NCBI RefSeq assembly: GCF_000350105.1 | Contig: NZ_CAIY01000027.1 | Location: forward strand, 310,001-374,000 | From: Richelia intracellularis HH01 | GTDB lineage: Bacteria; Cyanobacteriota; Cyanobacteriia; Cyanobacteriales; Nostocaceae | DNA length: 64,000 bases | Reading direction: 5' to 3' | Part shown: piece by piece, positions 6,203 through 54,683 of the stretch | How the letters are laid out: each line of letters opens with the position of its first letter | How positions within the stretch are numbered: the first letter of the stretch is position 1 | Position numbers and translations under genes: made by a program | The notes under the pieces: model-generated | The model's input: only the letters and a program-made list of their open reading frames with translations | Databases searched by the model: none | What the model was told of the DNA's origin: nothing

Positions 6203-6235
6203 AATTTATACTCAAATAGTTATTGAGTATAAATT
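6203..6235. repeat. Perfect inverted repeat, 13-bp arms
   Basis: AATTTATACTCAA (6203-6215) pairs with TTGAGTATAAATT (6223-6235) across a 7-base loop, in the middle of a gene-free stretch. Confidence 0.7.
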
Positions 6236-8600: not shown

Positions 8601-8623
8601 GGCAAATAGAGAAACCAATAAAT

Positions 8624-8650
8624 AGCCCATTCCTACTGAGTGGGCTTTTA
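8624..8650 (+). terminator. Rho-independent-type terminator after petM
   Basis: AGCCCA (8624-8629) pairs with TGGGCT (8641-8646), followed by TTTTA. It sits 24 bases past the petM stop. Confidence 0.7.
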
Positions 8651-8761
8651 ATTTAGTTAAAATACAAGAACATGACTGGCTTATTTATGAACTGAGTGTT
8701 TACAGGTACTATTATAATAGTAAGATTTTTCATAAAAGTTTACTAGTTGTTACATAATCCC

Positions 8762-9748: not shown

Positions 9749-9963
9749 TAATTCGGTATTTTAACTTTAAGTTAATCTCCTTTTTCCCCCTTGGCGCAAA
9801 TCCTATAAACAAGTATGAAAAATATTTGTTAATACTATCAACTCTCAACTATTTCCAAATGATTACTACAAAAATCACTAAATTTAAATTTGGACTAGAT
9901 TGTCTGAAATTTATCAGGATAAAATAATGTGGAGCATTGCCTAGATAATTTGGATATTTGAGT

Positions 9964-10881
9964 GTGCCAAAAGCAGGCATTATTTACAACAACGCAAAAC
10001 CAGTAGCGAGTCGCATCGCTATGGAACTTCAAGGGAAATTCCATACTGTTGGTTGGGATGTATTTCTCTCAACTGGTATAAATGGTATTCTGGGCTGTTC
10101 CAGTCCGGAAACTCCTGTATGCTATACTCCAATCCAAGGTTTAGCACCACCCGGTTTTGATACTGACATGCAATTCGCTGTTGTATTAGGGGGAGATGGA
10201 ACTGTTTTGGCTGCATCCCGTCAAGTTGCCCCTTGTGGCATCCCCATTTTGACTGTAAATACTGGTCATATGGGGTTTTTAACTGAATTGTATGTGAGTC
10301 AGTTGCCCCATGCAATTGAACATTTACTGACTGGGGATTATGAAGTTGAAGAAAGAACAATGGTAAATGTACAAGTCCTTCGAGAAAATGAAGTTCTTTG
10401 GGAGGCTCTTTGCTTAAATGAAATGGTTTTGCACCGGGAACCATTAGCTTCCATGTGTCATTTTGAAATAGCTGTGGGCAATCATGCTCCAATTGATATT
10501 GCTGCGGATGGTGTAATTATTTGTACACCTACTGGATCAACCGCTTATTCTTTAAGTGCAGGGGGACCGGTGTTATTGCCTGGTGTACCTGCATTGCAGT
10601 TAATACCTATTTGCCCCCATTCCCTGGCTTCTAGGACATTAGTATTCCCCAATGAGGAACCTGTGAATATTGTTCCTGTAAATACATCGAGGTTAGTAAT
10701 GACAGTTGATGGTAGTGGAGGTTGCTATGTAATACCTAAAGATAGGGTATATTTAGAGCGGTCGCAATATATAACCCGTTTTATCCGTCTCCAGTCACCA
10801 GAGTTTTTCCATATTTTACGAGAAAAGTTAGGTTGGGGTGTACCACACATAGCTAAACCAACATCTATGGAATCACCTTAG
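9964..10881 (+). CDS. nadK: NAD kinase (ATP or polyphosphate dependent)
   Basis: It phosphorylates NAD to NADP and so supplies the NADP pool for photosynthesis. From GTG at 9964 the protein is about 305 residues and begins [17 protein letters not shown] two codons upstream is possible but less likely. The GGDGT signature is at residues 76-80, followed by NTGHMGFL, the conserved NE, and [20 protein letters not shown]. Cyanobacteria often carry two NAD kinases; this resembles the group with an insertion before GGDGT. A terminator hairpin follows at 10940-10970. Confidence 0.94.
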
Positions 10882-10939
10882 TTTTAGGTGACTATTAGAA
10901 GTATTTTCTCTGTATTCTACTTCAATTATAAATCTAATA

Positions 10940-10970
10940 CCGGATATCATAGGTTTCATATCCGGGTTTT
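10940..10970 (+). terminator. Terminator after nadK
   Basis: CCGGATAT (10940-10947) and ATATCCGG (10958-10965) form a stem with a 10-base loop, followed by GTTTTG. It lies 58 bases after the nadK stop. Confidence 0.65.
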
Positions 10971-11043
10971 GTATGTGTGGGAACCTTGCTAGCCTAGCAT
11001 TTAGGCTCAGCCAACATTTTGTCATCAACAGTCAAAAATTGAT

Positions 11044-11730
11044 ATGACCCTTGCTCAGATTCCCTATGTTCTAGTGATTGAAAGTGATGAAAACTTGGCA
11101 CACAAATTAGCTTATGACTTGAAAAAAGTTGGTTATAATCCAGTAGAAGCTCATAGTGCCATAATTGGCCTGCAATATAGCCAAGAGTATGAACCAGCTT
11201 TAATCATTGTTGATCGTTTGCTTACAGGAGGTTCAGGAATCTCTCTATGTAAGAAGATCCGTCATCATGGTAATACATCTCCTATACTAATTTTAATGTC
11301 AAGGGATGAGGTAGAAGACAGAGTAGCTTGTTTAGAAGCTGGAGCTGATGATTATTGTCTTAAACCATATTGTTCTGAAGATTTTTTGCAATTAGTGAAA
11401 TTATATTTACAACCTAGTACTAATACTTCTGAACAATTGTGCTTTGGGAATTTGTTACTAAATACTAGTACCCGACGCGCTAGTGTCAACAAGCGGACTA
11501 TAGATTTGACGATGAAGGAGTTTGAGTTACTTAAGTATTTTATGGAACATCCCCATGAAGTTTTGACAAGAGGGCAAATCCTAGAACATGTTTGGGGTTA
11601 CGATTTTATGGGGGAATCTAATGTTATTGAAGTTTATATTCGCTATTTACGCCTAAAAATAGAAAATGGGGGAGGAAGACGTTTAATTCAAACTGTACGT
11701 CGTGTAGGATATGTTTTGAGGGATTCTTAG
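11044..11730 (+). CDS. nblR: NblR-type response regulator (OmpR family)
   Basis: A 228-residue protein with an N-terminal receiver domain (acidic E13/D15, D57 in LIIVDRLL, K in CLKPY) and a C-terminal winged-helix DNA-binding domain (LTMKEFELLKYFMEHP, HVWGYDFMGESNVIEVYIRYLR). Overall it matches the cyanobacterial NblR group, which controls phycobilisome breakdown under nutrient stress and can act without classical phosphorylation. The call rests on recalled similarity across the whole length rather than on one motif; another OmpR-type regulator is the alternative. No kinase gene is adjacent. A 6-bp hairpin (AGCCTA / TAGGCT, 10991-11007) lies in its leader. Confidence 0.75.
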   Translation: MTLAQIPYVLVIESDENLAHKLAYDLKKVGYNPVEAHSAIIGLQYSQEYEPALIIVDRLLTGGSGISLCKKIRHHGNTSPILILMSRDEVEDRVACLEAGADDYCLKPYCSEDFLQLVKLYLQPSTNTSEQLCFGNLLLNTSTRRASVNKRTIDLTMKEFELLKYFMEHPHEVLTRGQILEHVWGYDFMGESNVIEVYIRYLRLKIENGGGRRLIQTVRRVGYVLRDS

Positions 11731-12455
11731 TGTGTTTATGATTATAATCACCTAATTAATCAAAACTTATGGTAAAAAAACGGGGATATTATCTTGCCTT
11801 GTGTTGTTTTTAGTTATCACTACTCAGAATACTACAATAACAGGTTTTCTATTTAGCAGGGACAAAAAACATATTGGTAGGTAAAATACCACAAGTAGAA
11901 ATAAAAAACTACCAGTAAATTCTGAAGACTTACCAGCAGATCATGATGTAAAGTCCATATAGTATATATAGTGATTAACACAAATCTTGTATTAATCATC
12001 GAACAATATTATTTAACTATAGTGACTCCTGTAGTATGTATCTTGGATAACATGGTTATTGTCAGTGATGCTTGTTTTCCATCATAAACTTCTTGTCATG
12101 GCTCCCATTTTTTACTCTGCTCCAAATTGTGGCAGCTTGAAACTGGTTTGACTGTCGATTCTTAACAATTTTTATAGTTTTCTTAATTACTCCGAGTATA
12201 TGTGTAGGGCTTTACTTCCTCTCTTCAATTTTTCATTGTGGAAATATTTTTTATCCCCATATTTTAGAGTTTGCGTATAACTATAGTAACGCTTAAATTT
12301 CAAGTCTGAAAAAGATAACCATGTTTAAATCCTTAAACTTCCTACTTTATGGAGGATAATTGAATCAATATAGAAAACTGTGTCTGAGGGACAGGGGGAA
12401 AAGCTATCCTTCGCTTAAACTTATTTGTGAAAATCACTCTACTTGATATTTCCTT
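11731..12455. other. Gap between nblR and pgi
   Basis: 725 bases with no open frame of note and no clear hairpin. It should contain the pgi promoter; I cannot place it. Confidence 0.5.
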
Positions 12456-14045
12456 ATGGACGCTAAGGCACTTTGGCAAAGATACCAGCAATGGTTATAT
12501 TTCCACGAAGGATTAGGTTTGTATTTGGATGTAAGCCGGATGCGCTTTGATGATGCCTTTGTGGAGGCATGCAGTCTGAAGTTTAAGCATGCTTTTACCC
12601 AGATGACAGAATTAGAGAACGGGGCACTGGCTAATCCGGATGAAAATCGTATGGTGGGCCACTACTGGCTACGAAACCCTGATTTAGCACCAACTCCAGA
12701 ACTTACCCAAGAAATTGCCAATTGCATCGAGAAAATTGAAGCATTTGCCGAACAAGTCCACACCGGTGAAATACATCCACCCAAAGCACCTCTTTTTACC
12801 AATATTCTCTCTATTGGAATTGGTGGTTCAGCCCTCGGTCCACAATTTGTGTCTGAAGCCTTAGTTCCCAATAAGCCACCCTTAGCAATTCACTTTATTG
12901 ATAATACTGATCCCACAGGTATAGATCGTACCCTTAGTTCTTTAGACGAAGACCTACATAGGACTTTAGTACTAGTGATTTCTAAATCAGGGGGAACTCC
13001 CGAACCCCGCAATGGAATGATGGAAGTTAAAAGGGTATTTGCTGAAAAAGATTTGGATTTTGCAAACAATGCTGTTGCCATTACGATGGCTGGTAGTAAA
13101 TTAGACGATATTGCTACTAGAGAAAATTGGTTGGCCAAGTTCCCCATGTATGATTGGGTAGGTGGACGTACTTCAGAATTATCAACTGTTGGTTTAGTTC
13201 CTGCAGCTCTTCAGGGTATTGACATCCGTGCGATGCTCCGAGGGGCAAAGGATATGGATGAGGCAAACCGTATTCCGGAATTACATAATAATCCAGCAGC
13301 TTTACTGGCTTTATCTTGGTACTATGCAAGTAATGGCAAAGGCGAAAAGGACATGGTTATTCTGCCCTATAAGGATAGCTTGCTTCTATTCAGTCGGTAT
13401 TTGCAACAGCTTGTTATGGAATCCTTAGGCAAAGAAAAAGATCTAGATGGAAATACCGTTTGTCAAGGTATTGCTGTTTATGGTAACAAGGGTTCCACGG
13501 ACCAACATGCCTATGTTCAGCAATTACGGGAAGGTGTACCTAACTTCTTTGCTACTATAGTTGAAGTGTTAGAAGACCGTTGTGGAAAGTCTATGGAAGT
13601 TGAACCAGGAATTACTTCTGGAGATTATCTATCTGGCTTTCTTCAAGGAACTAGACAGGCTTTGTACGAAAACAATCGTGACTCGATTACACTGACGATT
13701 GCACAGGTAAGTCCTCGTACAGTAGGGGCCTTAATTGCCCTATACGAACGTGCAGTGGGCTTATATGCAAACTTAGTAAATATTAATGCTTATCATCAGC
13801 CAGGCGTAGAAGCAGGGAAAAAAGCAGCCGCGGCTATCCTAGAGTTGCAATCAAGTATAATGAAAGTACTGGAGAAGGAGAAGGTACCTATCTCGCTAGA
13901 ACTATTAGCCCAAAAAGTTGGCATGCCAGAAAAAATTGAGTCCATGTATATGATTGTTCGCCATCTTCATGCTAATCAACGTGGAGTTGTACTAGAAGGA
14001 AATCTTGGTAAACCCTCTAGTTTGAAGGTTGCTATAAATTTTTAA
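12456..14045 (+). CDS. pgi: Glucose-6-phosphate isomerase
   Basis: It interconverts glucose-6-phosphate and fructose-6-phosphate in glycolysis, gluconeogenesis and the sugar-phosphate cycles. The protein has 529 residues, the length normal for cyanobacterial Pgi. Visible motifs are [36 protein letters not shown] (sugar-phosphate binding SIS fold), [13 protein letters not shown] and the catalytic-region DQHAYVQQL. No damage is seen. The start is ATG at 12456 without a strong Shine-Dalgarno. It stands alone in its orientation. Confidence 0.97.
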
Positions 14046-14160
14046 TCAGGCGCAGATTAGCAAACATTACACCTACACCTACTACCAAGAGAATATAATA
14101 GTCCCCAATTGGATTTAATACAGTCAGCTTATTACCCCAGTTAAAACATTCCCTCTCCTT
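14032..14160 (-). pseudogene. Possible membrane-protein remnant overlapping the pgi stop
   Basis: On the minus strand the bases past pgi read NPIGDYYILLVVGVGVMF then ANLRLIKNL and a stop at 14032, a plausible last membrane helix. No start or upstream domain is found and it runs into the pgi end. It may be a gene tail left by decay, or chance. I do not recognise it. Confidence 0.22.
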
Positions 14161-14223
14161 AATGAGGAGAAGGGAAATGGGGAATAAAGCAATACTAGTA
14201 ATAACCTCTCTGACAGTTCCTAA

Positions 14224-14668
14224 ATGTATTTTTTGTTTTACCTTTTAAGATTTTTGAGAAATATTATTAATAGGATAGTACCGAAAACTGCAGGCATATT
14301 ACTGCAAGTATTATTAAGATTAATTAGAAAAATCATAAAATTTTTTAGGTCTTTGATATTCTACCTGTTGTTAATTTCTTCCTATATCTCTAATTATTTT
14401 TCAAAACTCCACCAAGATATTTATATATACTTTATTTGGAAAGCCTGAAGTAGAAAAACTGCCCTATAAACAAGTGGTAGACTGTCATATCAATGAAAAG
14501 AATGAAAAGGTCGATTTATATCCTCAGTGCAATGTTTACTTACAAACTAATTCTCAGCCTTTAATTAAATCCCCTTTTGAAAAGGCACTAACTTCCCTTT
14601 CCGTCTATCCAATAGGTTTATGCCTAATCACTACGTTTTATCCCACCTATAACAGGTCTTACTTCTGA
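14224..14668 (+). pseudogene. Possible frameshifted small membrane-anchored protein
   Basis: A first frame from ATG 14224 gives a hydrophobic, arginine-dotted N-terminus and stops at 14448. The next frame is open from 14375 and reads TLFGKPEVEKLPYKQVVDCH and then NEKNEKVDLYPQCNVYLQ. The two would join smoothly near an AT repeat (about 14417-14431) if two bases were gained or lost. The second part has protein-like composition. Its last residues overlap the 3' end of the DUF3769 gene on the other strand. The family is not recognised, and the join is inference. Confidence 0.3.
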
Positions 14669-17083
14669 AGGAGCAAAAGGATTAGTTCCTCCATTCCAAT
14701 TGAAGTCACTAACCCGAAAATTAACTGCACCTAGTCCTAGGACAGGATTATAACGAATAGTAACCCCATAAGTCCGCCGACTATATTCCAGGATGTAGTC
14801 AGTAGTGCTGCTTTCTCCAGTATTCAAGTTAATAGCAGTTTCAAAGCCAATACGTAAAGGGCCATATATCTGTTGAGTAACACCTAAACCTAATACTTTT
14901 TTATCAATATCGCGATCGAATAAAAATGGTGATACTCCACTATTTATACCTTGAGAAAAACTGATATTAAAACCTGTATAGTCAGAGAATAGTTTAGAGG
15001 AATAGCCAAACTGGCCTTGCAAGCCAATAGTTCCATTTATAGTGCTTTGCTTGTGACCATTACTGTATAAATTAGCAGTGGCAGTCACCCCTGTATATAA
15101 TCTTATAAAGGGAACTACTGGATTCCGTGTATATTGTAATCCCTCTTTTGCCGTTGGTGGTAGTCCTTTCCCTTGCCATAATAATAGTCCTCCACTAAGA
15201 GCTGCACTACCTTGAAAATTTATCAGGGAAACTAGATTATTATTCCTGATTGTATTTAACAACTCTTGGCGATCAGTATCAGCTGTAACATATTGGGCTC
15301 CAGTTTGATAGCTTAAATTAAGACCTTTGCCTAAATGTATTACTGGGGACATTACTGTACTACCAATGCTACTTTGGATTGTTTGAAATCCCAAATTACT
15401 GTTAAAAATCCGTTCACGATAGTTGAATCCCATAGACAACTTATGGGGCTTTTGAAGGTTCCCAAACTTTCGCTGAAGACGGATATTAGCTCTTAATTTC
15501 TCCTGAATTTCTCCTGAATCAAAACTTGTAAGGGAACCATAACCTTCCAATATTGATCTTTGATCAAACTGAATATTTAGTTTACTTTTTAGCCCAAAGA
15601 CAGAAGCAATACTGCTTGTTTTTTTTATAGCTTCTTGGGTGAAAAATTGTGGGGTTATATTCCACTGAGATGTTTCTTTATTCAGGATCTCAAATCGACG
15701 TTCTAAAAATAAGCCTCCCCTTTCATCTTCATCAAAACCGAAAGAAACTAAAATTGGTGTTACATTTCTTTCCCGATAGTCAATAGTTTGGGAGCTCTTA
15801 GGGATAGGCAAGCTCAAACCTTGATCGAAGACTAATTTTTGTCCCTGGGTCTTAATCTTGTTTTTCAAAGGAGACTTACGTGTGAGGGTAATTTTTTTTG
15901 CCCGCAATTCCAACTCTGGAGGTGAGAAAGGATCATTGGTTAGTTTTACATCTCTGGCATTCCAACCATGGGGATAGAAATCAATCCATGCAGCCTCAAA
16001 TCGTATTTTATTAACTGTTCCCCCTTGTTTATATTTGGGCAAGTTACTAACATTATTTACACCGCCAATATTGAAATTAATAGCTCCAGGACTACTGGCT
16101 TTTAGGGGTTGTCTAACACGAATGCGATCACTAATTGGTTCGACAATTCTCCCTGTTGTTACATCAGTAGCCAAAAAGGAAAAATCCTTACCAACTGTGG
16201 GTATAAATATTTCCCCCCTACCATTTTGCAGTTTTCCTCGGTCTTGAATAAATTTATAGGTAAACTTATCTGCCCTAAGTAACTGATTACCCCTTGCCAA
16301 AGACACATTCCCTTCTCCCGTGGCGATGAAATCACCCAAGTTTACTTGTAGGTGATCAGCAGCCAGTATTGATCCATTAAATCGGACAATTACCTTACCT
16401 TTGGCAGTGATTATACGTCTTGGCTCATCATACTCCTGACGATCAGAAGTCACTTCTATAAACAGTCTGGTGGGCAGAGACAAATTCCCTGATTTTCCTT
16501 TTTGTGGATTATTTAGTGAATTATATGTAGTTTTCCGGGTATGTGAAGTTTTTGATTGATTTGCTCGAGATATTGGCTGTCGGGATTTAAAATTTATAGT
16601 GCCTAGTCGTCCTTCAGCCATAGAGTTAAAGTTAATTCTTATAGGATTTTTGGTTGTAAGTGAATTTTTGAGATTGACAGTTATTGGTGGTGATTCCATA
16701 ATTCTCGTATCTTCTAATGGCAGCATTTTCTTACTTTTGCTGAAACAGCCACAAGTAGTTACGAGGCTATAATCTACACATAAATGATTCCTTAAATTTT
16801 CTGCTTTTCCTAGCCTTATTGAAGAAGGAATCCCAGGTGTAAATATTTTCCGGGTGCTACTAGAAGTCGATAAACTTTTGTAGTTAGTAACCCCATTTAT
16901 AGGAATATTGTCAGAAACCTGAAGAGACAAGGGACAATTATTTTTATTTCTATTTTTTGTATCAGTTGAAGAGTATTGGTTGTGATGGCCAATAATTTTA
17001 TACCGATTAAGAGCTAGGTTTTGGCTGCCATTTGAAGTCCCCAGAACAAGGGGTACTAAGTATGGCAGAAACGCGTTGAGCAT
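14624..17083 (-). CDS. LptD/OstA-like outer-membrane assembly protein (DUF3769)
   Basis: An 819-residue protein. The first 210 residues are low in recognisable structure, after a weak hydrophobic start. An OstA/LptA-type beta-jellyroll follows (about 205-290: ITAKGKVIVRFNGSILAADH, VNLGDFIATGEGNVSLARG, LRADKFTY). A long beta-strand-rich C-terminal region then resembles the LptD barrel (repeated alternating patterns such as GLNLSYQTGAQYV, FGYSSKLFSDYTGFNIS). LptD-type proteins insert lipopolysaccharide into the outer membrane. In cyanobacteria this family carries the DUF3769 label and its cargo is less certain. ATG is at 17083. It lies 214 bases downstream of psbI on the same strand, but co-transcription is unlikely given the hairpin at 17125-17166. 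Confidence 0.85.
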   Translation of the reverse strand: MLNAFLPYLVPLVLGTSNGSQNLALNRYKIIGHHNQYSSTDTKNRNKNNCPLSLQVSDNIPINGVTNYKSLSTSSSTRKIFTPGIPSSIRLGKAENLRNHLCVDYSLVTTCGCFSKSKKMLPLEDTRIMESPPITVNLKNSLTTKNPIRINFNSMAEGRLGTINFKSRQPISRANQSKTSHTRKTTYNSLNNPQKGKSGNLSLPTRLFIEVTSDRQEYDEPRRIITAKGKVIVRFNGSILAADHLQVNLGDFIATGEGNVSLARGNQLLRADKFTYKFIQDRGKLQNGRGEIFIPTVGKDFSFLATDVTTGRIVEPISDRIRVRQPLKASSPGAINFNIGGVNNVSNLPKYKQGGTVNKIRFEAAWIDFYPHGWNARDVKLTNDPFSPPELELRAKKITLTRKSPLKNKIKTQGQKLVFDQGLSLPIPKSSQTIDYRERNVTPILVSFGFDEDERGGLFLERRFEILNKETSQWNITPQFFTQEAIKKTSSIASVFGLKSKLNIQFDQRSILEGYGSLTSFDSGEIQEKLRANIRLQRKFGNLQKPHKLSMGFNYRERIFNSNLGFQTIQSSIGSTVMSPVIHLGKGLNLSYQTGAQYVTADTDRQELLNTIRNNNLVSLINFQGSAALSGGLLLWQGKGLPPTAKEGLQYTRNPVVPFIRLYTGVTATANLYSNGHKQSTINGTIGLQGQFGYSSKLFSDYTGFNISFSQGINSGVSPFLFDRDIDKKVLGLGVTQQIYGPLRIGFETAINLNTGESSTTDYILEYSRRTYGVTIRYNPVLGLGAVNFRVSDFNWNGGTNPFAPSEVRPVIGGIKRSD

Positions 17084-17124
17084 ATTTCAGTACAATTAGT
17101 CAAGAGCATATAGCCAGACGAGCA

Positions 17125-17166
17125 GTCGGAAGGTAGAATAAATGAGATTTTGTTTTGCCTTCCGAC
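17125..17166 (-). terminator. Hairpin between psbI and the DUF3769 gene
   Basis: GTCGGAAGG (17125-17133) pairs with CCTTCCGAC (17158-17166), a GC-rich 9-bp stem with a 24-base loop. It lies 130 bases downstream of psbI and just upstream of the next start. It could be a psbI terminator or a leader structure. No clear U-run is seen. Confidence 0.4.
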
Positions 17167-17297
17167 AAGTTATTTCCCTAAGACGGTGATAGCTAATCCG
17201 TAGTTTTTCACTGTGTATCTATTTCTTCATTCCCAAGGCACTTATACCAGTAAATACTAGCCTGGTGGTAGCTGAGGGCTGAAAATATTATTGCCAA

Positions 17298-17414
17298 TTA
17301 CTCCAGGTCCTGGCGCCCAGGGTTGCGTGATGGATCACTAGACAAAAAACCAAAAATGAAAATACTGATAAAGAAGGCAACGACGATATAAACTACTACC
17401 TTTAAAGTCAACAT
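17298..17414 (-). CDS. psbI: Photosystem II reaction centre protein I
   Basis: A 38-residue single-helix protein: [20 protein letters not shown] then [18 protein letters not shown]. The MLTLK start, one membrane helix and the tail NPGR(R/Q)DLE are diagnostic of PsbI, a thylakoid subunit that stabilises photosystem II. GGAG lies 6 bases before ATG, a good Shine-Dalgarno. Complete and well conserved. Confidence 0.95.
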
Positions 17415-17802
17415 GGGAATACTCCAGTTGTATGTATAATAATGACTTCCATCTTTACAATACAAGAAAAAGAGAACTTGTCTGACTTTACTTAATATTG
17501 TTAATTTTTTGATACCCTATGTTAGCAGTTTAGTATTGACCTTTAGCATTAGCTATCATTAATGACTTAGAAATATTCCTGGTTAGAAATAATTTAGCTA
17601 TTTACCCCTTAAAAATTATAAATGAGTAAATGCTTGATAAGCATAAGGCTAGAAAAGTTAAATATTCCTATCCCAAATATTTTCAAGGATGGCAGTTTCA
17701 ATGAAAAATAATTATCACTAAAATAATTTTCTAAAAGTCAAGGTTTTCTTTTCCCTGCCCAATATCAGGCAACTATAAGCCAGAAAACTACCTCATATCT
17801 AA
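17415..17802. other. psbI upstream region
   Basis: 388 bases between psbI and the acyltransferase gene, both read leftward. It should hold the psbI promoter. No ORF or strong hairpin is seen. Confidence 0.45.
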
Positions 17803-18495
17803 CTAATTACAGGATAATACTTCCTGATTTTTCCTACTCTTAATAACTTTTGCAGGAACTCCCACAGCAATGGAAAAAGCAGGGACACTTTTTGTTACTA
17901 CTGCTCCCGCACCAATAATACTTCCTCTACCAATTGTTACACCATCTAATACAGTAACTCCATGACCTAACCAGCAATCATCTTCAATTACAATTCCCTT
18001 ACGAGTAACACCTTGGTCTTTGATAGCTATAGACAAATTATCAAATTTGTGATTGTTAGCAATGATGCCTGTATGGGCAGCGATTAAACAACGTTCACCA
18101 ATTTTTATGTCTCCAGGACCACCAATACAAACATTAGGACCGATGAAGGTTTCCTGGCCAATATGTATATTGGTATTATCCAGAAAACCAATTTCTACAT
18201 TACGTTCAATCGCGACCTTATTTCCCAAACACAGGCGATTATTTCTGTGCCCACGTGCATCTAAACGTGCCCCCTTGAAAATATATACACCATTACCGAT
18301 TTCTATGGAGTGAGTACCAAATAAATCAACATTATGCTCAATAAATACTTTATGGGGAAATCGAGGAAAAAGTAAGCGGTATGTTAATTTTCTAACCTTT
18401 GGTCCACAAAGAATGGATGGCATCCATCCAAATAAATTAGTTAACAAAAATTCTGGTAATCGCTCTAGCTTTTTCAAAAATAGTTGCTGATTCAT
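17803..18495 (-). CDS. Left-handed beta-helix (hexapeptide) acyltransferase
   Basis: A 230-residue protein with many hexapeptide turns from about residue 55 onward (IGNGVYI, LGNKVAIERNVEIG, IGQETFIGPNVCIGGPGDIKIG, IEDDCWLGHGVTVLDGVTIG). A likely catalytic His lies in AAHTGIIANNHKFD. The end GAVVTKSVPAFSIAVGVPAK is typical of the maltose/galactoside and colanic-acid O-acetyltransferase branch. It probably acetylates a sugar in cell-surface polysaccharide. The exact substrate cannot be read from sequence and no sugar cluster is adjacent. Confidence 0.85.
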   Translation of the reverse strand: MNQQLFLKKLERLPEFLLTNLFGWMPSILCGPKVRKLTYRLLFPRFPHKVFIEHNVDLFGTHSIEIGNGVYIFKGARLDARGHRNNRLCLGNKVAIERNVEIGFLDNTNIHIGQETFIGPNVCIGGPGDIKIGERCLIAAHTGIIANNHKFDNLSIAIKDQGVTRKGIVIEDDCWLGHGVTVLDGVTIGRGSIIGAGAVVTKSVPAFSIAVGVPAKVIKSRKNQEVLSCN

Positions 18496-18952
18496 GCAGA
18501 AATGCTTCTCACTTAAAAATGAGCCTGATCTGATTCCTTTTGTTATGTGATATGTTATTATGCCCTGCTGATAACTTTGAGTTTATATGTAAACTATTTC
18601 ATAACAAAAATATGAAATAGTTCTGCTAATTTGGAAGTAGATCTTTTACAATCAAAAGCATAAATTTATAGCCTACTAGTTAATAGGCTCTATTCAATTC
18701 AATTAATTTGTTCTATCAAATAAGAAATCTATAGTAACATCAAACAATTATCCAACTCCTAAAATGATACTAGCCTAAGATAGTTTAACAATAAATAAAA
18801 GTGCATTATGAGTAAGATAACCTTCCAGAAAATTATGGTATTAGACGTTTCTTATCTAATATTTCAATTGTTCAAACTTGTATGCTCAAGAGTATGTGCA
18901 TTTGTAAAAACAAACTGTCACTATATTTACTAGATAAACAACTAAGTTAGAA
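18496..18952. other. Gap with one hairpin
   Basis: 457 bases between two leftward genes. AACTATTTCATA (18592-18603) and TATGAAATAGTT (18611-18622) form a perfect 12-bp stem with a 7-base loop. Nothing else is supported. Confidence 0.55.
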
Positions 18953-20122
18953 TTAATTTATTCTGGGCCCAGAATAATTGTCGATGCAACGGAATAAAAA
19001 AATCCATAATGGAAGAAAAGCATTGATTATAATCAAACGCACCAGGTGACCTGCTGTTATAATATCCACGTTATGATTTAATCCTAAGGCAACTAAGATT
19101 ATCTCTGCTGATCCCCCTGGTGCGGTTACTAGCAGACAGGTTAGCCAATCCCAGGATGTCAGGTACATTGCCAATAAACTAGAGACAATCCCTGCGCTTA
19201 GAGTCAAAATAACGCAGATGAAGGCATAAGTGATGTTCTTTCTACCAAATTGAAAATTATGTCCCCAGTATTCGCCAATATTAATTCCTAGTAGCAATTG
19301 GCTAATCAACTGGATGAAGCTAGGTGGAGTGAATTCAATATAATCTACAAACGGTAATGAATTAAGAGTAGTATTAAATAAGATTGCAACTAGTAAAGGT
19401 CCAAAGAAATCACTTGCTGGTATTTTAAATAAACGTGCTACATATGCACAAATTACCGCTACTATCAGCAGTAATCCTAACAGCCCTAAGTTATCAGCCT
19501 GTATACTATAATAGTTAATATTTTGTGGAATTGGCAAGTCAAGAAAACTGCTACTATAGACTCGGGCAAGCAAGGGAATTAAGATTATTACAGATGTAAC
19601 TCGAACTGTTTGTGTAAAGGTAACCAGACCTACATTCCTATTATAATCTGCAGCTATTGCAGCCATTAATCCCACTCCACCAGGTACAGTGGCAAGTATT
19701 GCTGTCAGGATATTGATTTTGCTCAGACGAGAATAGATGTAACCAATTGCAGTACTGCATAGTAGCAAGAATACAGTTAAAAATACAAAAATAGGTATGC
19801 TGGTGTATATATTTTTTGACAGGTCACCATGAATACTCGCAAAACCAGTTGTAATACCCACTAAAACCAAGCCAATTTTCCTAGAAAGGTGATTTGGCTG
19901 TGGATTATGAAACAATAGGTGGCTAAACTGTAATACCACATTACCAGACACAGCACCACCGATAAACCAAGCCATACGTCCTATATAGAAGTGATATAGA
20001 ATAACACCTAAGGGAATTGCTATTATGAGCTCTAAAGAAAGAAGGAAAACAAGTTTGCTAAAAGCAGAGTATTGACAAAGCCTATTCCTTATTAGTAAAT
20101 AACCAATGATGCTGGAAAGCAT
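18953..20122 (-). CDS. AbrB-family integral membrane protein (putative transporter)
   Basis: A 389-residue protein with about ten hydrophobic helices in two similar halves. Each half carries the family glycine motif: ATVPGGVGLMAAIAADYN (about 140-160) and VTAPGGSAEIILVALGLNHN (about 335-355). This is the AbrB or ammonia-monooxygenase-like membrane family (PF05145), unrelated to the AbrB DNA-binding regulators. It is presumed to be a transporter, with substrate unknown. ATG is at 20122. It is complete and stands alone. Confidence 0.85.
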   Translation of the reverse strand: MLSSIIGYLLIRNRLCQYSAFSKLVFLLSLELIIAIPLGVILYHFYIGRMAWFIGGAVSGNVVLQFSHLLFHNPQPNHLSRKIGLVLVGITTGFASIHGDLSKNIYTSIPIFVFLTVFLLLCSTAIGYIYSRLSKINILTAILATVPGGVGLMAAIAADYNRNVGLVTFTQTVRVTSVIILIPLLARVYSSSFLDLPIPQNINYYSIQADNLGLLGLLLIVAVICAYVARLFKIPASDFFGPLLVAILFNTTLNSLPFVDYIEFTPPSFIQLISQLLLGINIGEYWGHNFQFGRKNITYAFICVILTLSAGIVSSLLAMYLTSWDWLTCLLVTAPGGSAEIILVALGLNHNVDIITAGHLVRLIIINAFLPLWIFLFRCIDNYSGPRIN

Positions 20123-20925
20123 TTATGCAAACTTATGAATTTTATTTAACAATGCGTATAATCTATTACATAACTATCCTAAACAGATTGTGAATAGCCT
20201 GAGCATACTTCATTCAGCGAAAAAATGCTTAGGCAAAATTCACTGGTTTAAAGTACAATAATTATATTGTGAAATTTTAAACTAGTAGTTAGGACTTTTT
20301 ATGATTTTCTGCATCCTCATTTAATTTCTGAGTCCAAATCACAAATCTTCAATTTAATTAAAGCCGGGATATTTTTCAGGAATGTTTGACTCTAAACATA
20401 ACCTCTTTGAAGATTTTAAGCGATTAATTAGGAATATCAAAGAATAATATCATCAATCATATTACTGAAATACTGCTCCATTTAAGTCTCAAATCAACAT
20501 CTATCATAATACCCTTCAAAATAATTAGGGTAGTCAAATCCTGAATTTTTCAGCGTATTTTTCAGAATTGGCACTATAAAATAATTGTCCTATTTATTCC
20601 AAGGTCATTTACCATGATGACAGTCTCCGTATCAATTTATGATTTTTTGTATTTTCCCATTCCTTGATTCCCTGCATAGAATATTACACCACACATACAT
20701 ATATAAACTCTCTATATCTTACTTCTTCGTTAATTACCCATAATGGAAAAAGTAATTTTATTACATTGCAAAAAACAAGTTTTTGATTTTGGAGTCTTTC
20801 TCTAAAATCGCTAGGAACCCAACAATAAAAAAATGTTTTTATTGGACAAAATATACATTTAGTGTTTAGATAGGTAAAGGGTGTTTATAAACTAAAAAAA
20901 TAATACATTCCTATTTATTTTACCT
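20123..20925. other. Gap upstream of tRNA-Leu
   Basis: About 800 bases. A 21-codon frame with a start at 20382 (MFDSKHNLFEDFKRLIRNIK) reads like protein but is too short to call; it may be a gene fragment. The tRNA promoter lies somewhere near the right end. Confidence 0.4.
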
Positions 20926-21307
20926 GGGGGTGTGGCGGAATGGTAGACGCTACGGACTTAATTTATTTGAGCCTTAGAGGAGAAATCCTGTAAGTGTAAG
21001 CTCTCAAACTCAGGGAAACCTAAATCTGGCGTCAGACAGGGCAATCCTGAGCCAAGTCTTGTTGACTACTTGTAGAACTTTGCCTTCTAATTGCGATAAT
21101 TCAGATGGTAAATAACAGAAGAGTTAACAAGAAAGGTGCAGAGACTCGACGGGAGCCGCCCTAACGTAAAGCCGAGGGTGAAGAGAGAGTCCAATTCTCA
21201 AAACCTAATGTCTATAAAAGACATAATTAGGTAGCAGTGAAAGCTGTAAGGGAATGAAAATCCGTTGACCTTAAACGGTCGTGAGGGTTCAAGTCCCTCT
21301 ACCCCCA
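20926..21307 (+). tRNA. trnL-UAA: tRNA-Leu(UAA), split by a group I intron
   Basis: Exon 1 is 20926-20959 and exon 2 is 21257-21307, giving an 85-base tRNA with the long variable arm of leucine tRNAs. The acceptor GGGGGTG pairs with TACCCCC, the anticodon is TAA, and the T arm is GAGGGTTCAAGTCCCTC. CCA is not encoded. The intron breaks the anticodon after its first base, the classical position in cyanobacteria and plastids. The D loop has one T fewer than the usual AATTGGTAG text. Confidence 0.95.
20960..21256 (+). ncRNA. Group I intron of tRNA-Leu(UAA)
   Basis: A self-splicing intron of 297 bases with no ORF. The core elements are visible: a Q-like AATCCTGAGCC (21043-21053), an R-like GTGCAGAGACTCGAC (21136-21150), an S-like AAGAGAGAGTCC (21181-21192) and the terminal G at 21256. 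The 5' exon ends in U, as needed for the U-G splice pair. It is longer than the 249-base Anabaena copy as I remember it; extra bases appear in peripheral loops such as 21060-21130. Confidence 0.93.
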
Positions 21308-21418
21308 TTCGTTACTGTACTTGTTTAATGTATGGTCAGTATGTAATCCCAATTTAAGTTTGTTTATGTTTAGAAGCTCATTATGTTTAACCTCAGTGAC
21401 AGCTTCTTAGCTCCACTG

Positions 21419-22120
21419 CTACACTAATATTTTAGTTAGTGCAAAAGCTATAGTCGCAGTACCCAAGGGTACAGTTAGGTTATCGATGCCTAAGAACGAG
21501 AGGCTTTCTAGTGCAGTAGCTATTAATGCTACTACCACAGATATCATCCAAATCTGCCATAAATTACCCTGTACTGTAATTAATATCAGTGAAGCAACTA
21601 TCCAACTAGTAAGACACATAGCGAGAGAACCCTCCCAACTTTTTTCTCTCCCTAGTGTTTTGTACTTATGTTTACCGAAACGTTGGCCAACTAAGGCTGC
21701 CAACCCATCCCCCCATGTCATCACCATGACTCCTAAAACTGCGTATTGGGGCTCATGTAAATGCCAAAAATAAGTAATTAGGATGCCAATACTAGCAGCA
21801 TAAAAAAAAGTACCTAAACTTTTTCTTCCTACACTGTTAATCCCTGGAATAATGGGTAACTTATAAGATAACAAAGTCACAATGCAGGCACAAATTGATG
21901 CTGTTATACCCACACCAGAAGGGATATTTAACCACCAGGCAATTAGAATAACATGACCTGTACCAATATGAACTATTTTGCGAATAACTTCTGAGTTAGC
22001 AGAAGTGAAATAGCTTACACACCATGCGACTAAGATGACAAGTAACATCCATAACCCAATGCTACAAGTTTGCAACCACAATGACAGGAGAGATCCCAAT
22101 TGAGGAAATAGACTCAGCAA
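21419..22120 (-). CDS. Phytol kinase (VTE5-like, phosphatidate cytidylyltransferase fold)
   Basis: A 233-residue membrane protein with about six helices. The family motif is [20 protein letters not shown] followed by [12 protein letters not shown], and [13 protein letters not shown] lies near the N-terminus. Phytol kinases recycle phytol from chlorophyll for tocopherol and lipid synthesis; polyprenol or dolichol kinase is the alternative within the fold. A TAA directly precedes TTG 22120 in frame and no ATG follows before residue 25 (WMLL), so TTG is the likely start. It is divergent with yidD (55-base gap). Confidence 0.82.
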
Positions 22121-22175
22121 TTACCATTCCATATTACTAAACTTTCCTACACTTTATCCGATTTGGTTGATAGCA

Positions 22176-22409
22176 ATGAAATTATTATTAATTTGGTTAA
22201 TTCAATTTTACCGAACCTTTATTTCTCCTTTATTCCCACCAAGTTGTCGCTTTGAACCAACTTGCTCCATGTATGCAATCCAAGCTATTGAAAAATTAGG
22301 TATATGCCATGGTGGATGGCTAGCCATATGTCGTATTTCTCGATGTCATCCTTTTCATCCTGGTGGCTATGACCCGGTTCCACTAGCCCCAAGGAAAACT
22401 GATAAATGA
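22176..22409 (+). CDS. yidD: Membrane protein insertion efficiency factor YidD
   Basis: A 77-residue protein from ATG 22176 ([20 protein letters not shown]). It has the family core [18 protein letters not shown] and the end [13 protein letters not shown]. YidD is a small membrane-associated protein thought to help YidC insert inner-membrane proteins. An in-frame TTG three codons earlier is not needed. The stop codon lies inside the left arm of a long hairpin (22394-22436). Confidence 0.93.
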
Positions 22410-22436
22410 ATGGCCTACATTCATTTATCAGTTTTC
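22394..22436. repeat. Perfect 19-bp hairpin overlapping the yidD stop
   Basis: GAAAACTGATAAATGAATG (22394-22412) pairs with 22418-22436 across GCCTA. It includes the last codons of yidD and precedes the bidirectional terminator at 22445-22473. Confidence 0.85.
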
Positions 22437-22444
22437 TTGATATT

Positions 22445-22473
22445 AAAAAGCCCACCTTATTAGTGGGCCTTTT
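22445..22473. terminator. Bidirectional terminator between yidD and the porin gene
   Basis: A5 then GCCCAC (22450-22455), a 7-base loop, GTGGGC (22463-22468) and CTTTT. The A-run and T-run on either side fit a terminator for both converging genes. Confidence 0.85.
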
Positions 22474-22494
22474 AGATTCTAACAAGTTCTCAAA

Positions 22495-24126
22495 CTAAAA
22501 CTTGAGTGTTGTACGAACAGTACCTACATATATGGTATTGTTCTCATTGCTATGTTCGGGATTGAAGATTACAACCATACCAGGAGTCACAACAACGCTA
22601 TTGGAAATCTTCATTTTATACAAACCTTCTAAGTGGAAGGAAGTATCATTATCTTCACGAGTGGCAATGGAGTTATCATTAACTTTGGGTGACTGACCAA
22701 CAATCACACCTAAAACATTACCTGTTCCTCCAATATCTTTAATACCCACGTTGGCAGACCAGTAAAAAATATCAGCATCTGCACCCTTCTTGTCTACCCC
22801 ACCAGATTCTGCCTCAGCATCAGTTAGACCAGCCCAACCACTCACAATAACTTTATCAGTAGCCCTGAAGGATGCCTGAAGACCATAGTTGTTAGAAGTG
22901 GTAGCAACATCATCAAATGGCTTAGAAGCAAATCCACTACCAACACCACCTGTCAAGTCTACTTGATCTCCACTCTGATAGGCACGCGAGTATACAAGAC
23001 CTATACCTAGTTTTCGATCAGGCTTGAATGAAAGCTGGGCTAAGGAAGTATTAGAACCATCGAACATACCTTTACCATCAGCAGGGTTGGAGCTATTATT
23101 TCCAGGTACCATATAGGCAGCATCAAAGCTAATATTACCCTTAGGGTTAAAGTTAACGGTAACACCAGCACCCCCACTATTAGGAAGATAAACGGGACTG
23201 AAACGCCCGAAGCGAGAAATAGCGCCAGAACTTCCGCTACTCCAAAGAGGATTAAAGACGTTGACATTATCGGCAACTGATGCACCTGTAGCTTCAAGCT
23301 TGATACGAATACTGTCACTCATGTTAAAAGCGTAATTAAACTTATCAAGCTCAACATTATTATTATCATTGCTGTCAAAGCCTAAACGTGTCATGCTTGT
23401 GCCAGTTGCACTAGGCCCAAACTTAGTTATGTTACCCGTATTCAAACGGGTTTCCAAGCGATCTGTACCATTGAAACTGGTTAATAACTTTAGGCGCAAC
23501 CGATTAGAAAAAGCAACATTATCTTCTAATTTAGGATTATTAGTAGGATCATTATCAGTATCAGCCCCACCATCGCCAAATGCACTAGATAAAGCGAAAA
23601 TTGCTTCCCCTTTTAGCTTTGTAGTAGTGGAAAAACGGTTTGCTTCTAACTCAGCAGTACGCGCCTCTAAAGAGGCCACTCGGCCGCGTATAGTTGCTAG
23701 CTCAGCGGAAAACTCCTCTTGTAATCTTTGTAGGGTGGCTAAGTCCTCCTTAGTAACAAGGTCAGCAGTAGTAGTGGCAATTAGCTCATTAACCCTATCC
23801 AGACAGGCATTTAAACCAGCAGCAAACTCGTAACGGTTTAAGGTATCTTCTCCACGGTACCTGCTGTTGGGATAACCAGAAATGCACCCATAACGTTCAA
23901 CTAAAGACTGAAGTGCCTGGAATGCCCAATCTGTAGGCTCCACATCTGAAAACTGTGATACTGAGGTAACTTGACCTATCCCTGTAGAAAATTCCTGGGA
24001 TAGTTGGGATGTTGAGTCAATTTCCCCAGCGACAGCAGGATTAGTTGTCCCGAAGACAGCTGCTAGAACAATAGGGCTGACTCTCAATGCGTTCAATACT
24101 AATTTAGTTATTAATAGTTGAGCCAT
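22495..24126 (-). CDS. Iron-uptake porin of the cyanobacterial SLH/OprB type
   Basis: A 543-residue outer-membrane protein. A signal peptide is visible up to AVA-GEID (about residue 33). An SLH domain follows (about 60-110: DVEPTDWAFQALQSLVERYG, GYPNSRYRG, LNRYEFAAGLNACLD) that would bind the peptidoglycan-linked polymer. A coiled coil comes next (about 120-165: EEFSAELATIRGRVASLEAR). The C-terminal OprB-type beta-barrel ends in YVGTVRTTLKF with the terminal Phe typical of barrels. Proteins of this group are major cyanobacterial porins implicated in iron uptake. Codon use is more GC-rich than in neighbours, as expected of a highly expressed gene. It ends at the bidirectional terminator. Confidence 0.93.
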   Translation of the reverse strand: MAQLLITKLVLNALRVSPIVLAAVFGTTNPAVAGEIDSTSQLSQEFSTGIGQVTSVSQFSDVEPTDWAFQALQSLVERYGCISGYPNSRYRGEDTLNRYEFAAGLNACLDRVNELIATTTADLVTKEDLATLQRLQEEFSAELATIRGRVASLEARTAELEANRFSTTTKLKGEAIFALSSAFGDGGADTDNDPTNNPKLEDNVAFSNRLRLKLLTSFNGTDRLETRLNTGNITKFGPSATGTSMTRLGFDSNDNNNVELDKFNYAFNMSDSIRIKLEATGASVADNVNVFNPLWSSGSSGAISRFGRFSPVYLPNSGGAGVTVNFNPKGNISFDAAYMVPGNNSSNPADGKGMFDGSNTSLAQLSFKPDRKLGIGLVYSRAYQSGDQVDLTGGVGSGFASKPFDDVATTSNNYGLQASFRATDKVIVSGWAGLTDAEAESGGVDKKGADADIFYWSANVGIKDIGGTGNVLGVIVGQSPKVNDNSIATREDNDTSFHLEGLYKMKISNSVVVTPGMVVIFNPEHSNENNTIYVGTVRTTLKF

Positions 24127-25350
24127 TTTCTAATCTCACTCACACCAGTTTGTGTATATTTCAAATTCTACCACTTATTGCCTAATTTCTTAGTCAGAGT
24201 AACTACTGATTAGATTTGGGGAGAAACCTGCTAAAAAACCAAGCTACCAGTACATAATTTCATGCTAATTTTGCAGACTATGATTCAGATATTTAGGTGT
24301 TTATAACTTAATTAACTGACATACACGACAAGGCATAATAAGGAAATCATCTTGGTATACAACTAATGCAATAAAATATTGTATCTGGACTCTAAATTTG
24401 GGAGTTGCTTAAGTCAAAAGCCAAATGTGTTATTACCACCCTAAATTAGAGCCTGTATCACCTATTATTTTTATTCATTTCATATTCCATAGACTAATAT
24501 CAGTGGATGGAAAACTGATAAATTCTTTCCTTGTTTATAAGGTAAGATGTGGCAATAGAGATATTTTCAGACCACCCATAAATATGAGAGATGACAATAA
24601 TGTGACTGAACCAAATTTATATTACACTGCCATGAAAGAGAAAGAAAAGTTGTGTTTGAACTTCATCCAATTCATTTTACTCAATGATTATTTTCCTCTT
24701 ATCAAGGGTTTTTACAGCCGAAGAATTCAAAGTTTATATACTTTATATCCCTTCATCACCATCAACTTCATTGCCATCAATCAATAGTAAAAAAATCACT
24801 GCATTTTACGCTTATGAGTTTTATCTCCTAACATAAACTCAATCCACCAGAAAGGCTAAAATATAACATATCTCCAGGGCATATTCGCTCCATACAAATA
24901 TGAGTTTTAGTCTCAGAAGTTTAAGAAAACTATAGTTAAGTATATTAATTAATTGAAGGGTCTCTATTTATGTATACTTAAAATTAAGTCAAACTTGATA
25001 ATTTTTTTAACAGACAAAAAATATATGGTATTCGTAGCCACATTGTTACCAGGATACCAGTCCAAAATACATAGGGGTTTATGTTGCATTAATTTGTATA
25101 AAAATGCCTATCAAAAAAACACTTATTTTGTAAAACCACAGAAAAACATTCACTAATACGGGCAAGGTGTAATTTGTCTGTTTTTAATTTATCCTACGAT
25201 AGATGTCCTAGCAACTTTTAAAATAATTGATGCTTAAAGTTAACTAAACCGAGGCAATATAATTTCTTCCCTAGCTATTACACTTTTACCTTATTCCGAA
25301 GAAGTTTGGATACCAGGTTTACCATATTAATGCAATTTACCACAAATATC
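24127..25350. other. Gap between porin and phoU remnant
   Basis: About 1.2 kb. A 120-codon plus-strand frame at 24425-24787 and a 67-codon frame at 24953-25156 have noise-like composition and no recognisable motif, so neither is called. The porin promoter should lie in 24127-24400. Confidence 0.4.
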
Positions 25351-35332: not shown

Positions 35333-35929
35333 TTAAGACTAAGGTTAGGAAAACTCTTCTATGTCTTCATATCATTGTTGGTTAATAAAAGTTAAATTGG
35401 AATGTTGGTTTAAATATTTGTTATTAGTCAGGTTGGTTTTATAAAACTTTATAAAACCAACCTGACTAATAACAAATATGGCTTTATGCTTTCTATCATG
35501 AAAGTTTATAAAGTATTTACTATTCTTGTAATTATATCAATTATAAAAACCTTCTCATGTAAATGCCTTCTAACGAAAGTATTTACTGCAACGAAGATAG
35601 TGTTAAATTTACTGGGAATTCATGGAAACCAGAAGTTTGGTAAACATAAAATGGAAATGATATTAAATACGAGATATTCATTAAACTGAAAGAAATTCAT
35701 GTAGGCAATAATCATAGTTGAGTATGAATACTTTTGATATTTCATTCCTAACAGTATCAACTAATGCATGAATCATGATTAAGTTTTGTTAAAAATTGTA
35801 AAAGCCATAAATACTTTAATATTTTAAAATTTTAGAAAAATCAAACCTAATATCTTGATTTAAACCTTGCAAAAAAAATTTTTAGGTTCAATAATTAGAT
35901 TTCTAACTTTAATATCCATAGTAAAAAAT
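35333..35929. other. Gap after dapL
   Basis: About 600 bases holding the 66-base palindrome and a 67-codon frame (35486-35689) with noise-like composition that I do not call. Confidence 0.4.
35414..35479. repeat. 66-base near-perfect palindrome, 32-bp arms
   Basis: Arms 35414-35445 (ATATTTGTTATTAGTCAGGT...) and 35448-35479 are perfect reverse complements with only AC between them. It is the longest inverted repeat in the window. It lies between dapL and the recJ region. It could form a strong RNA hairpin or a DNA cruciform. Confidence 0.92.
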
Positions 35930-38253
35930 CTATGAGGCACTGATAACTTTTGGAAATATCATGGCTTGAATAGTTGATACACTTACCTGAGAAAAATACT
36001 GTTGTTGAAATTGCTCTTCATGGATTGCAGCTAAGAATTGACAAATTTCGTTCTCTGAAGTGCTCGATAAATTATGGTGACTTTGCATAATTTTCAGGTG
36101 ATTTTCTTGGCTTTTAACATCAAAACCGCAGGAATTTAGTGCTTGAATACCAAAATGCAAGCATTGATCACTAATTTGTAATTTTTTTAAGATCTGGATA
36201 CGAGGAGCTAATTTTTGGTTATGACTGAGGTATTTAGCAAGACCCACCAAAGTTATCCAAATTTGAACAGGTGATTTTTGTTTTGGTTCATTCCAAGCTA
36301 TTGCTAATATCTGTTGATTATATAGATTTCTCTCTATCCAAACCTGCAAATCATTCCAACTGGAAGGACATTCGCTTAGCAATAGAGTGTTTGAAGGTAA
36401 TTCCTGACTATTTTCCAAAAAAGATGTAGAACAATTACGCCAATCAACAATTTTTGCTGATGTTTGAGTTAGAAAAGACTTCTTACTGGCACGCACGTTG
36501 ATTATCCGGACTTCATAGCGATTTTTATAGGTGTTATAGTCTAATTCAAATATGCAATCACATTTTCCTAAGGGTAATTCATCCTTGTAATGTCCCCACC
36601 ATACACCAGGAAATTTTATATTGGTAGAGTTATCCCGAACACAAAAATCAGTTTTAATATACTGAACCTTATTCCCTTTCAAATCTTGCTGGTTTCGATG
36701 CCAAATATTCTCAAACCAACAATCTTGAATTAATAACTTGGGGACGGGGTTACCTATACCATATGGCTCTAATAACTTTAATTGTGTGAATAATTCCCTT
36801 CCTAAATCTGCAACTGTTACCTTTAAGTCTGCTGTCACTGTCAACTTTGAGGTTAAAATGTCCAAATTTTGCCGTAACTTTTGATTTATCGCCTGAGTAA
36901 AGAGGGGAATATTTTCCACTTTTAAGCTTAAGCCTGCAGCAAAGGGATGTCCCCCAAAACTATGTAATAAATGTGCTTGTTCGCTAACTAACTGATATAG
37001 ATCGACTGAATTAATGGAGCGAGCTGATCCTTTAGCTAGGATATCATTTTTCCCTCCCAAACTTAATAAAATTGTTGGGCGGCCTGTCTCTTGTGCCACC
37101 TGCCCAGCAACTAATCCCAATACCCCCGTTGCCCATTGAGAATCAGCTAAGACGATGACACTAGTTGTAGATAAATCTATGTGGCTAAGTTTGTGTTGAA
37201 CTTGTTGCACCACATTTTTCTGTAATGACTTGCGACGGGTATTTGCTAACTCAGTGATTTCTGCCAATTCATAAACCTGTTGATGGTTACGACTTGTCAG
37301 TAATTCAACACATAGGCTAGAGTCACCTTGAATCCGGCTTACAGCATTAATTCTAGGACCTAAACCAAAGGAAATATCTGTGGGTCGATCACCACTCCCA
37401 TGACATAATTCTAATAGTCTTCCCACTCCAGGTCTTCGTCTTGCTTCCGGTTTTTTTTAAAGTCTTCCAAGAGTTTCTGGATTCCAAACTGTGCTAAGTA
37501 GCGACAGTCTCCACTCAATTGCACCAAGTCTGCAATTAGCCCTATAGCAACTAGATCTAACAAGTCTTCTATAGGTTGCTTAGGTATACTAGGTAATGTT
37601 TCGTACATTGCCTCAATAAGTTTATATACTACCCCCACGCCAGAAAGATGGTATAAAGGATGGTCTTGTGATAGATATCGGGGATTTACAATAGCTGTAA
37701 CCGGTGGCCTAGATTCTGGGAGAGTATGATGATCCGTAACAATTACATCTATACCCCGGGCTTTTGCATAAATAATTTCATTGATGTTCGTGCTACCAGT
37801 ATCACAGGTAACAATTAACTGACAGTTTTCTTGAGCTAATTTATCAATACCCAGATAATTAAGTCCATGGGATTCTGTCAAACGGTTGGGAATATAGTAA
37901 GTTAAATTATTTTTCTGTGTAAAGAACTGTCCTAAACCATCCCAAAGTACGGCAGTAGAAGTAATACCATCAGCATCAAAATCTCCCCAAATTGTTACTT
38001 TGTCCTGATTTTTATATGCTGACTGTAACCTTCTTACTGCCAACCGAATTTCTTGCCCGAATTCCCAAGGACTAGCAGGCTGATAACTATGGAAATTGAT
38101 AAATGAATCAAGTTGAGATATAGTTCTAATTCCCCTTTGCCACAGAAGTTGTGCCCCATAATACTTTTTAAAAGTGGGATTATACTGTTTTACTACTTCT
38201 ATAAACCAATCTGGAGGTTCTTTTGTTTGGTTAATCAACCATTGCTCTTCCAT
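35930..38253 (-). pseudogene. recJ: Single-stranded-DNA exonuclease RecJ, split by a -1 frameshift at A8
   Basis: RecJ degrades single-stranded DNA 5' to 3' in repair and recombination. The first frame (38253 to 37411, 280 residues) carries the DHH domain (GDFDADGITSTAVLWDG, VTDHHTLPES). The second (to 35930) carries SGDRPTDISFGLGPRINAVS, DHHA1 HSFGGHPFAAGL and the C-terminal OB and extra domains. Frame 1 ends in a non-family tail after an A8 run (T8 at 37451-37458 on the plus strand). Shifting -1 there gives EARRRPGVGRLLELC, the expected RecJ text, with every other part intact. Together they make about 774 residues, a normal length. It may be a recent loss, an assembly error, or a gene rescued by slippage; the otherwise clean reading makes me doubt a true dead gene. 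Confidence 0.88.
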
Positions 38254-53835: not shown

Positions 53836-54683
53836 ATGAGCAATAACTTAATTGTTCGCGGTCAATGTTTCTCCTGGGGACAGAGGACTTATTTAATGGG
53901 TGTTTTAAATATAACTCCTGACAGTTTTAGTGATGGTGGCGATTTTAGCTCAGTGGTCAGGGCTTTAGATCATGCCCGCAAAATGGAATTGGCAGGAGTA
54001 GATATTATAGATGTTGGTGGTCAGTCTACCAGACCGGGAGCAGAACAGATTCCTTTGGATACAGAACTAGATAGAGTAATACCTGTTGTGGAAGCTATTC
54101 GTGCAGAAAGTTCTATTCCTATTTCTATTGACACTACTAGTGCAGAAGTGGCAAAAGCTGCCATTTTAGCTGGGGCAGATATAATTAACGATATTTCTGG
54201 GGGTAGCTTTGATTCAGAAATGTTGCCAGTTATTGCCAAATGCCAAATACCCATTGTAATCATGCATATACGCGGAAACCCGCAAACAATGCAACAGTAT
54301 GGAAACTATAAAAATTTAATGGCAGAAATTAGATGTTTTTTAGATAAACGAATAAATGCAGCAACTTCTTTAGGTATTCCTAGAAGGAAAGTAATTATTG
54401 ATCCTGGGATTGGCTTTGCTAAGAACTACAAGCAAAATCTAGAAATTTTACGGCGTTTGCCAGAATTGCGAAGACTAAACTGTCCAATCTTAGTGGGAGT
54501 ATCTCGTAAGAGCTTCATCGGCCATATTTTACATCAACCAGACGCAAAAAAAGGGTTTGGGGAACAGCAGCAGCATGTTGTGCAGCCATTTTCAATGGTG
54601 CTGATATCCTTAGGGTTCATGATGTGCAAGCTATACGTGATGTCAACCTAGTTGCTGACGCAATATTCAGGAACCCAATGTGA
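53836..54683 (+). pseudogene. folP: Dihydropteroate synthase with a -1 frameshift at A7
   Basis: FolP joins pterin pyrophosphate and p-aminobenzoate in folate synthesis, an essential step. Motifs: MGVLNITPDSFSDGG, DIIDVGGQSTRPGA, IDTTSAEVA, INDISGG, VIMHIRG, IIDPGIGFAK, ILVGVSRKSFIGHIL. After an A7 run (54546-54552) the frame leaves the family and stops at 54651. Shifting -1 at the run gives DAKKRVWGTAAACCAAIFNG and then DILRVHDVQAIRDVNLVADA, ending at TGA 54681-54683: the normal FolP C-terminus, which carries the RVHDV substrate-site residues. So the gene is intact apart from one missing A. As folate is essential, rescue by slippage or an assembly error is more likely than loss. Confidence 0.9.

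Follow-up and report, generated by a model that had tools for sequence, protein, structure and literature searches.

The recJ gene of Richelia intracellularis HH01 is encoded on the minus strand at positions 35930-38253 of the window (the whole stretch of 64,000 nucleotides under study, C64:310001-374000) and is split into two reading frames; these join at a stretch of eight A (A8), which falls one base short of keeping the frame. Because similar one-base slips occur in other genes of the same assembly, including essential ones, the recJ break is most likely a sequencing error. Our favored reading is that the draft consensus miscounts the A8 homopolymer and that recJ is probably intact. The HH01 assembly comprises 3,240,816 bases in 90 contigs with a GC content of 0.341; we take this genome to have been sequenced by 454, and no statement on its sequencing platform was found in the literature searched. 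The available text of one source describes HH01 as an endosymbiont of the diatom Hemiaulus hauckii with a genome of about 3.24 Mbp (PMC8969518). The components of the recJ locus are as follows.

37411-38253, minus strand: open reading frame of the 5' part, 280 aa, ATG at 38253
37459..38253, minus strand: recJ 5' part in frame, DHH domain (TIGR00644 6-232, PF01368)
37451..37458, minus strand: A8 (T8 on the plus strand), one base short of frame, within an in-frame A_AAA_AAC
37411..37450, minus strand: extension of the 5' frame to its TAG, a non-family tail
35930..37450, minus strand: 3' part of recJ, read in the shifted frame, with the DHHA1 and RecJ OB domains (TIGR00644 234-543, PF02272, PF17768)
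35930-37426, minus strand: open reading frame of the 3' part, 498 aa if begun at the first start listed

At the break, the minus-strand text reads GAC TTT AAA AAA AAC CGG and continues for 11 further codons before TAG, which is the non-family tail noticed in the initial annotation. The 3' frame is open up to the run (506 codons and a stop, counted from 37450), and a TAA stands in this frame immediately 5' of the A8, thus the switch between frames must fall within the A8. Downstream of it the frame reads PEARRRPGVGRLLELC, which is the text of the relatives, as expected from the earlier claim that a shift within the A8 restores the family sequence. The initial annotation had described recJ as otherwise intact, with a one-base shortfall at the A8 and two overlapping frames that together give a full-length RecJ, and both the frames and the coverage of TIGR00644 agree: the two halves are free of stops and contiguous on the family model (6-232 and 234-543), no second lesion is present, and the combined halves carry DHH, DHHA1, and OB in the RecJ order, each half alone scoring below the NCBIfam cut-off for TIGR00644. 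The placement of the lesion at the A8 thus stands; its strand, however, has to be corrected to minus. Nor is the lesion a single case: it belongs to a class of breaks, of which folP supplies a second in the same window. Measured against the sister genome G001, the 5' part has a dN of 0.149 and a dS of 0.914, and the 3' part a dN of 0.154 and a dS of 1.043. Both halves are therefore under the same strong constraint (dN/dS of about 0.15-0.16) with no sign of decay, and recJ shows neither the multiple lesions nor the relaxed constraint that mark a decayed pseudogene.

We fetched the recJ loci of 29 relatives, of which 26 were readable at the site by motif (the three without the RPG motif were left out). 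An A-run of at least seven occurs at the site in none of the 26 relatives, the longest run being six, found in four of them; for instance, the sister G001 has GAT TAT AAA CAG CCA. The spacing between D[FY] and R[RH]RPG is six residues in 20 of the 26, and one extra A gives the same six residues in HH01, whereas two fewer would give five (judged by eye). The A_AAA_AAC heptamer that had been pointed out is indeed present and in frame, and it is only at the run that the downstream frame becomes open, as would suit programmed -1 ribosomal frameshifting that yields both a truncated and a full-length RecJ. The slippery A-run in the correct register is likewise a feature of dnaX-type frameshifting, for which the A site holds AAG; recJ, however, has AAC in the A site, no stimulator was found, and the run is unconserved. 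The sequence downstream folds no better than its shuffles (z of 0.93 and -0.32, in a fold test that covers structures other than pseudoknots). Given also the 0/26 relatives with a run of seven or more, we consider programmed frameshifting in recJ highly improbable.

Frame-aware hidden Markov model scanning of 654 kb of HH01, namely the window together with C64:1-312000 and C47:1-280000, revealed 12 apparent frameshifts of one base; all but one of them, that in purM, are located at A/T runs of 6-9. Sister proteins were in addition compared with positions 1-20000 and 25001-64000 of the window (20001-25000 being left out), and this comparison yielded one clean break besides recJ, that in folP. 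The breaks other than recJ are the following.

53836..54671 of the window, plus strand: folP (dihydropteroate synthase), one clean frameshift at A7 54546-54552 (TIGR01496 2-216 and 219-257)
C64:181470: PKS-like gene, A7 (sister comparison)
C64:185095: PKS-like gene, A9, may be two bases short (sister comparison)
C64:229403: Methyltransf_28 gene, T7 (sister comparison)
C47:217190: heme oxygenase, A7
C47:235602: alpha/beta hydrolase, A7
C47:240315: manC, A8
C47:185443: flavodiiron-type gene, A6 twice
C47:175162-178007, minus strand: valS, A7 at 175322
C47:123689-124758, minus strand: purM, T3 after G5 at 124596, near the gene start
C47:37767: ftsY, A7

A base is missing in nine of these breaks and one is extra in three. 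The two halves adjoin on a single family model in recJ, folP, the Methyltransf_28 gene, manC, valS, purM, and heme oxygenase; ftsY and the alpha/beta hydrolase have a family match for one half only, and the halves of the flavodiiron-type gene match two domains, which we presume to be expected in one protein. Both PKS genes have PfaA-like matches below the curated cut-off and may resemble heterocyst-glycolipid synthases. Lipids of the heterocyst-glycolipid type are made by HM01, a strain of the same species, according to the accessible part of the report (PMC11804610), which argues against loss of the PKS genes, but does not distinguish an error from a rescue.

The C64 scan gave 20 events, of which five were counted and 15 were not, at least five of the latter being located at gene boundaries or in genes that are intact in comparison with the sister. 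The pair C64:57654/57813 near an A7 is unclassified, although its second member is still among the nine events of the control scan described below. All seven inspected events of the 13 in the C47 scan were counted, and the six without a run nearby were set aside. In the sister comparison, 7 of the 87 ortholog rows were multi-framed, including five counted breaks and two rows that also contain stops. Sorted by restored run length, 0/33 sevens and 3/11 eights were broken in C64, as tallied by hand; these per-run rates are inflated, since the checked stretches outside the window were those flagged by the scan (the C47 stretch was not chosen in this way). The 12 breaks correspond to an estimated rate of about 3% of genes, taking about 367 kb of coding sequence at 0.95 kb per gene.

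The excess of such breaks in HH01 is apparent from a control scan, in which each genome was trained on itself, at least 150 nt of coding sequence were required on both sides, and the run had to lie within 25 nt. Events near A/T runs of at least seven amount to 9/27 in the 654 kb of HH01 vs. 0/46 in 1,054 kb of four relatives (G001, G015, G036, and G014), which were taken whatever their lifestyle, reduced symbiont or not, and their sequencing method, the G015 stretch containing 5,000 N. For runs of at least six, the numbers are 11 in HH01 and two in the four relatives. Eight of the nine HH01 events belong to the 12 breaks and the ninth is the unclassified C64:57813; folP and valS were removed by the 150-nt requirement and purM is without an A/T run of at least six, thus none of these three is among the nine. 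In the reverse check, 2 of 99 HH01 ORFs are two-framed in the sister. In the same comparison, the single HH01 open frame at C64:198835-199851 corresponds to two frames in the sister.

The spectrum of run lengths was examined as well. The counts of A/T 9-mers to 8-mers are 4 to 63 and 2 to 28 in HH01, 2 to 32 in G015, 15 to 49 in G001, 11 to 47 in G036, and 0 to 14 in G014. The spectrum stops at nine in HH01, with no run of 10, and also in the complete genome G015, and at eight in the complete genome G014; hence, a truncation of run lengths peculiar to the HH01 assembly was not found among these genomes, as complete G015 and G014 are similarly cut, and the spectrum was set aside as evidence of undercalling. 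A mutator was considered as well: the open frame of MutS is full-length (906 aa), thus no mutator is evident as far as MutS goes. Searches for independent sequences gave a single MAG with 61% identity among genome contigs, and thus no second genome of the same species, and no match to one exact pattern among viral contigs (very near records were possibly left out of both).

valS, purM, ftsY, and folP are essential genes, and it is scarcely credible that all four have been lost; the runs are either miscounted in the consensus or corrected by the cell. The short-run break of purM, the mixed signs of the indels, and the rate of about 3% of genes fit errors of the 454 type. In the text available from one study, 454 consensus errors favor A/T and long runs, touch 2.13-2.78% of the genes evaluated in a lake metagenome, and may reach 20% or more of genes at low GC (PMC3277595). 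In the assembled sequence, the HH01 breaks resemble the errors presented there in their location at A/T runs, in being mostly one base short, in touching a few percent of genes, and in including essential ones (PMC3277595). The marks of 454-type error seen in HH01 are the concentration at A/T runs (11/12), essential genes not being spared, and the excess over relatives. From the observed frame break, its place, the intact and constrained halves, and the class of similar breaks, we infer that the cause is most likely technical. A pyrosequencing-type undercall would have dropped one A from the recJ run in the consensus, and the living organism would keep an unbroken recJ and make an ordinary RecJ single-strand exonuclease.

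The initial annotation had raised the possibility of a rescue of the gene, pointing to insect endosymbionts; HH01 is apparently no insect symbiont but a cyanobacterium living with diatoms. Under this reading, the organism does have the A8, and slippage of RNA polymerase on it would add a base to a fraction of the recJ transcripts, from which full-length RecJ is translated, as known from Buchnera and Blochmannia. An otherwise intact and constrained recJ, the AT-rich genome (GC 0.341) of an apparent intracellular symbiont, and the concentration of the breaks at A/T runs are all compatible with slippage, for which there is a precedent of 12-50% corrected transcripts in the portions available of two reports (PMC5009743, PMC3017870). 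Real homopolymer frameshifts, also in essential genes, are described for Blochmannia in the latter (PMC3017870), and the cases in both sources, as far as their available text goes, share with recJ a single indel in an A/T run of a gene that is otherwise intact and constrained; however, their tracts are of nine or more, up to 12, vs. eight in recJ. The HH01 genome is also larger, and its run is not shared between lineages. The reviewed cases of slippage concern long poly(A) runs, and the recJ run has only eight A; it is missing in the sister and in 25 other relatives, thus conservation is unable to support slippage. Moreover, the flavodiiron-type gene is broken at runs of six and purM at a T3, a run too short for a likely rescue by slippage. 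The rescue claim is disfavored by the unconserved run, by downstream sequence in which no stimulatory structure stands out, and by the recurrence of like breaks in essential genes of this assembly, whereas the four relatives' assemblies have none at A/T runs of at least seven. We regard slippage in recJ as unlikely, and assembly error, the alternative that the initial annotation had itself named, is the better explanation.

If the breaks are real, HH01 would be a 3.2-Mb diatom endosymbiont with dozens of one-base A/T-run frameshifts in working genes, some of them essential, living by transcriptional slippage; we consider this unlikely. To our knowledge, slippage on such a scale is known only from insect symbionts, and HH01 would extend it to a photosynthetic symbiont in which many genes depend on slippage for their expression. 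If the breaks are technical, as we prefer, claims of gene loss that are based on frameshifts in the HH01 draft need run-by-run checking, and genes split only at an A/T run count as probably present, whereas those like SulP look truly decayed.

The remaining explanation is a real and recent loss of recJ in which decay has not yet begun. Ortholog matches of recJ lie in frames open for at least 719 codons in 37 of the 39 other genomes, the exceptions being G014 and G033. In G014, a complete 3.8 Mb genome of the same family, a recJ ortholog was not seen and only the second RecJ-like protein is present. This second RecJ-like DHH protein is common to all 40 genomes compared, with an open frame of 721 aa in HH01, and together with the absence from G014 it suggests that loss of recJ may be tolerable. 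Some genes of HH01 do appear to be truly decayed. The glycosyltransferase-like gene at C64:200090-201051 (named by eye) contains a stop in frame as well as a frameshift that is not at a run, and the SulP gene, which the available text of a published analysis presents as four-part (PMC12596568), has breaks at C66:3146-4243 that are away from homopolymers and include a TAA. SulP was thus rejected as a member of the one-base class and looks like a true pseudogene. True decay in HH01 differs in its look from the run-linked breaks. Loss of recJ in this manner would, however, require many simultaneous recent losses, among them valS, purM, and folP, with almost every break in an A/T run and no other damage seen, which makes it quite unlikely.

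Several further features were observed. The recJ ortholog of the draft genome G033 (G033:C328:14266-15047) is also two-framed, at a different place (query residue 196). Close copies of the window's transposase-like remnant (named by eye) are missing from HH01, the best other match being 71% over 133 bases. The window also contains a tRNA-Leu(UAA) gene with a group I intron (20925-21308, plus strand; RF00028 at 20950-21211), which ARAGORN finds with the intron option and misses in a plain run; a group I intron in this tRNA is ordinary for cyanobacteria. Damage to its D-loop was considered and rejected, as the sister has the identical sequence. Finally, a perfect inverted repeat (arms of 32 nt, loop of 2 nt) is located at 35414-35479, between an aminotransferase-like gene and recJ, and occurs once in the 654 kb searched.
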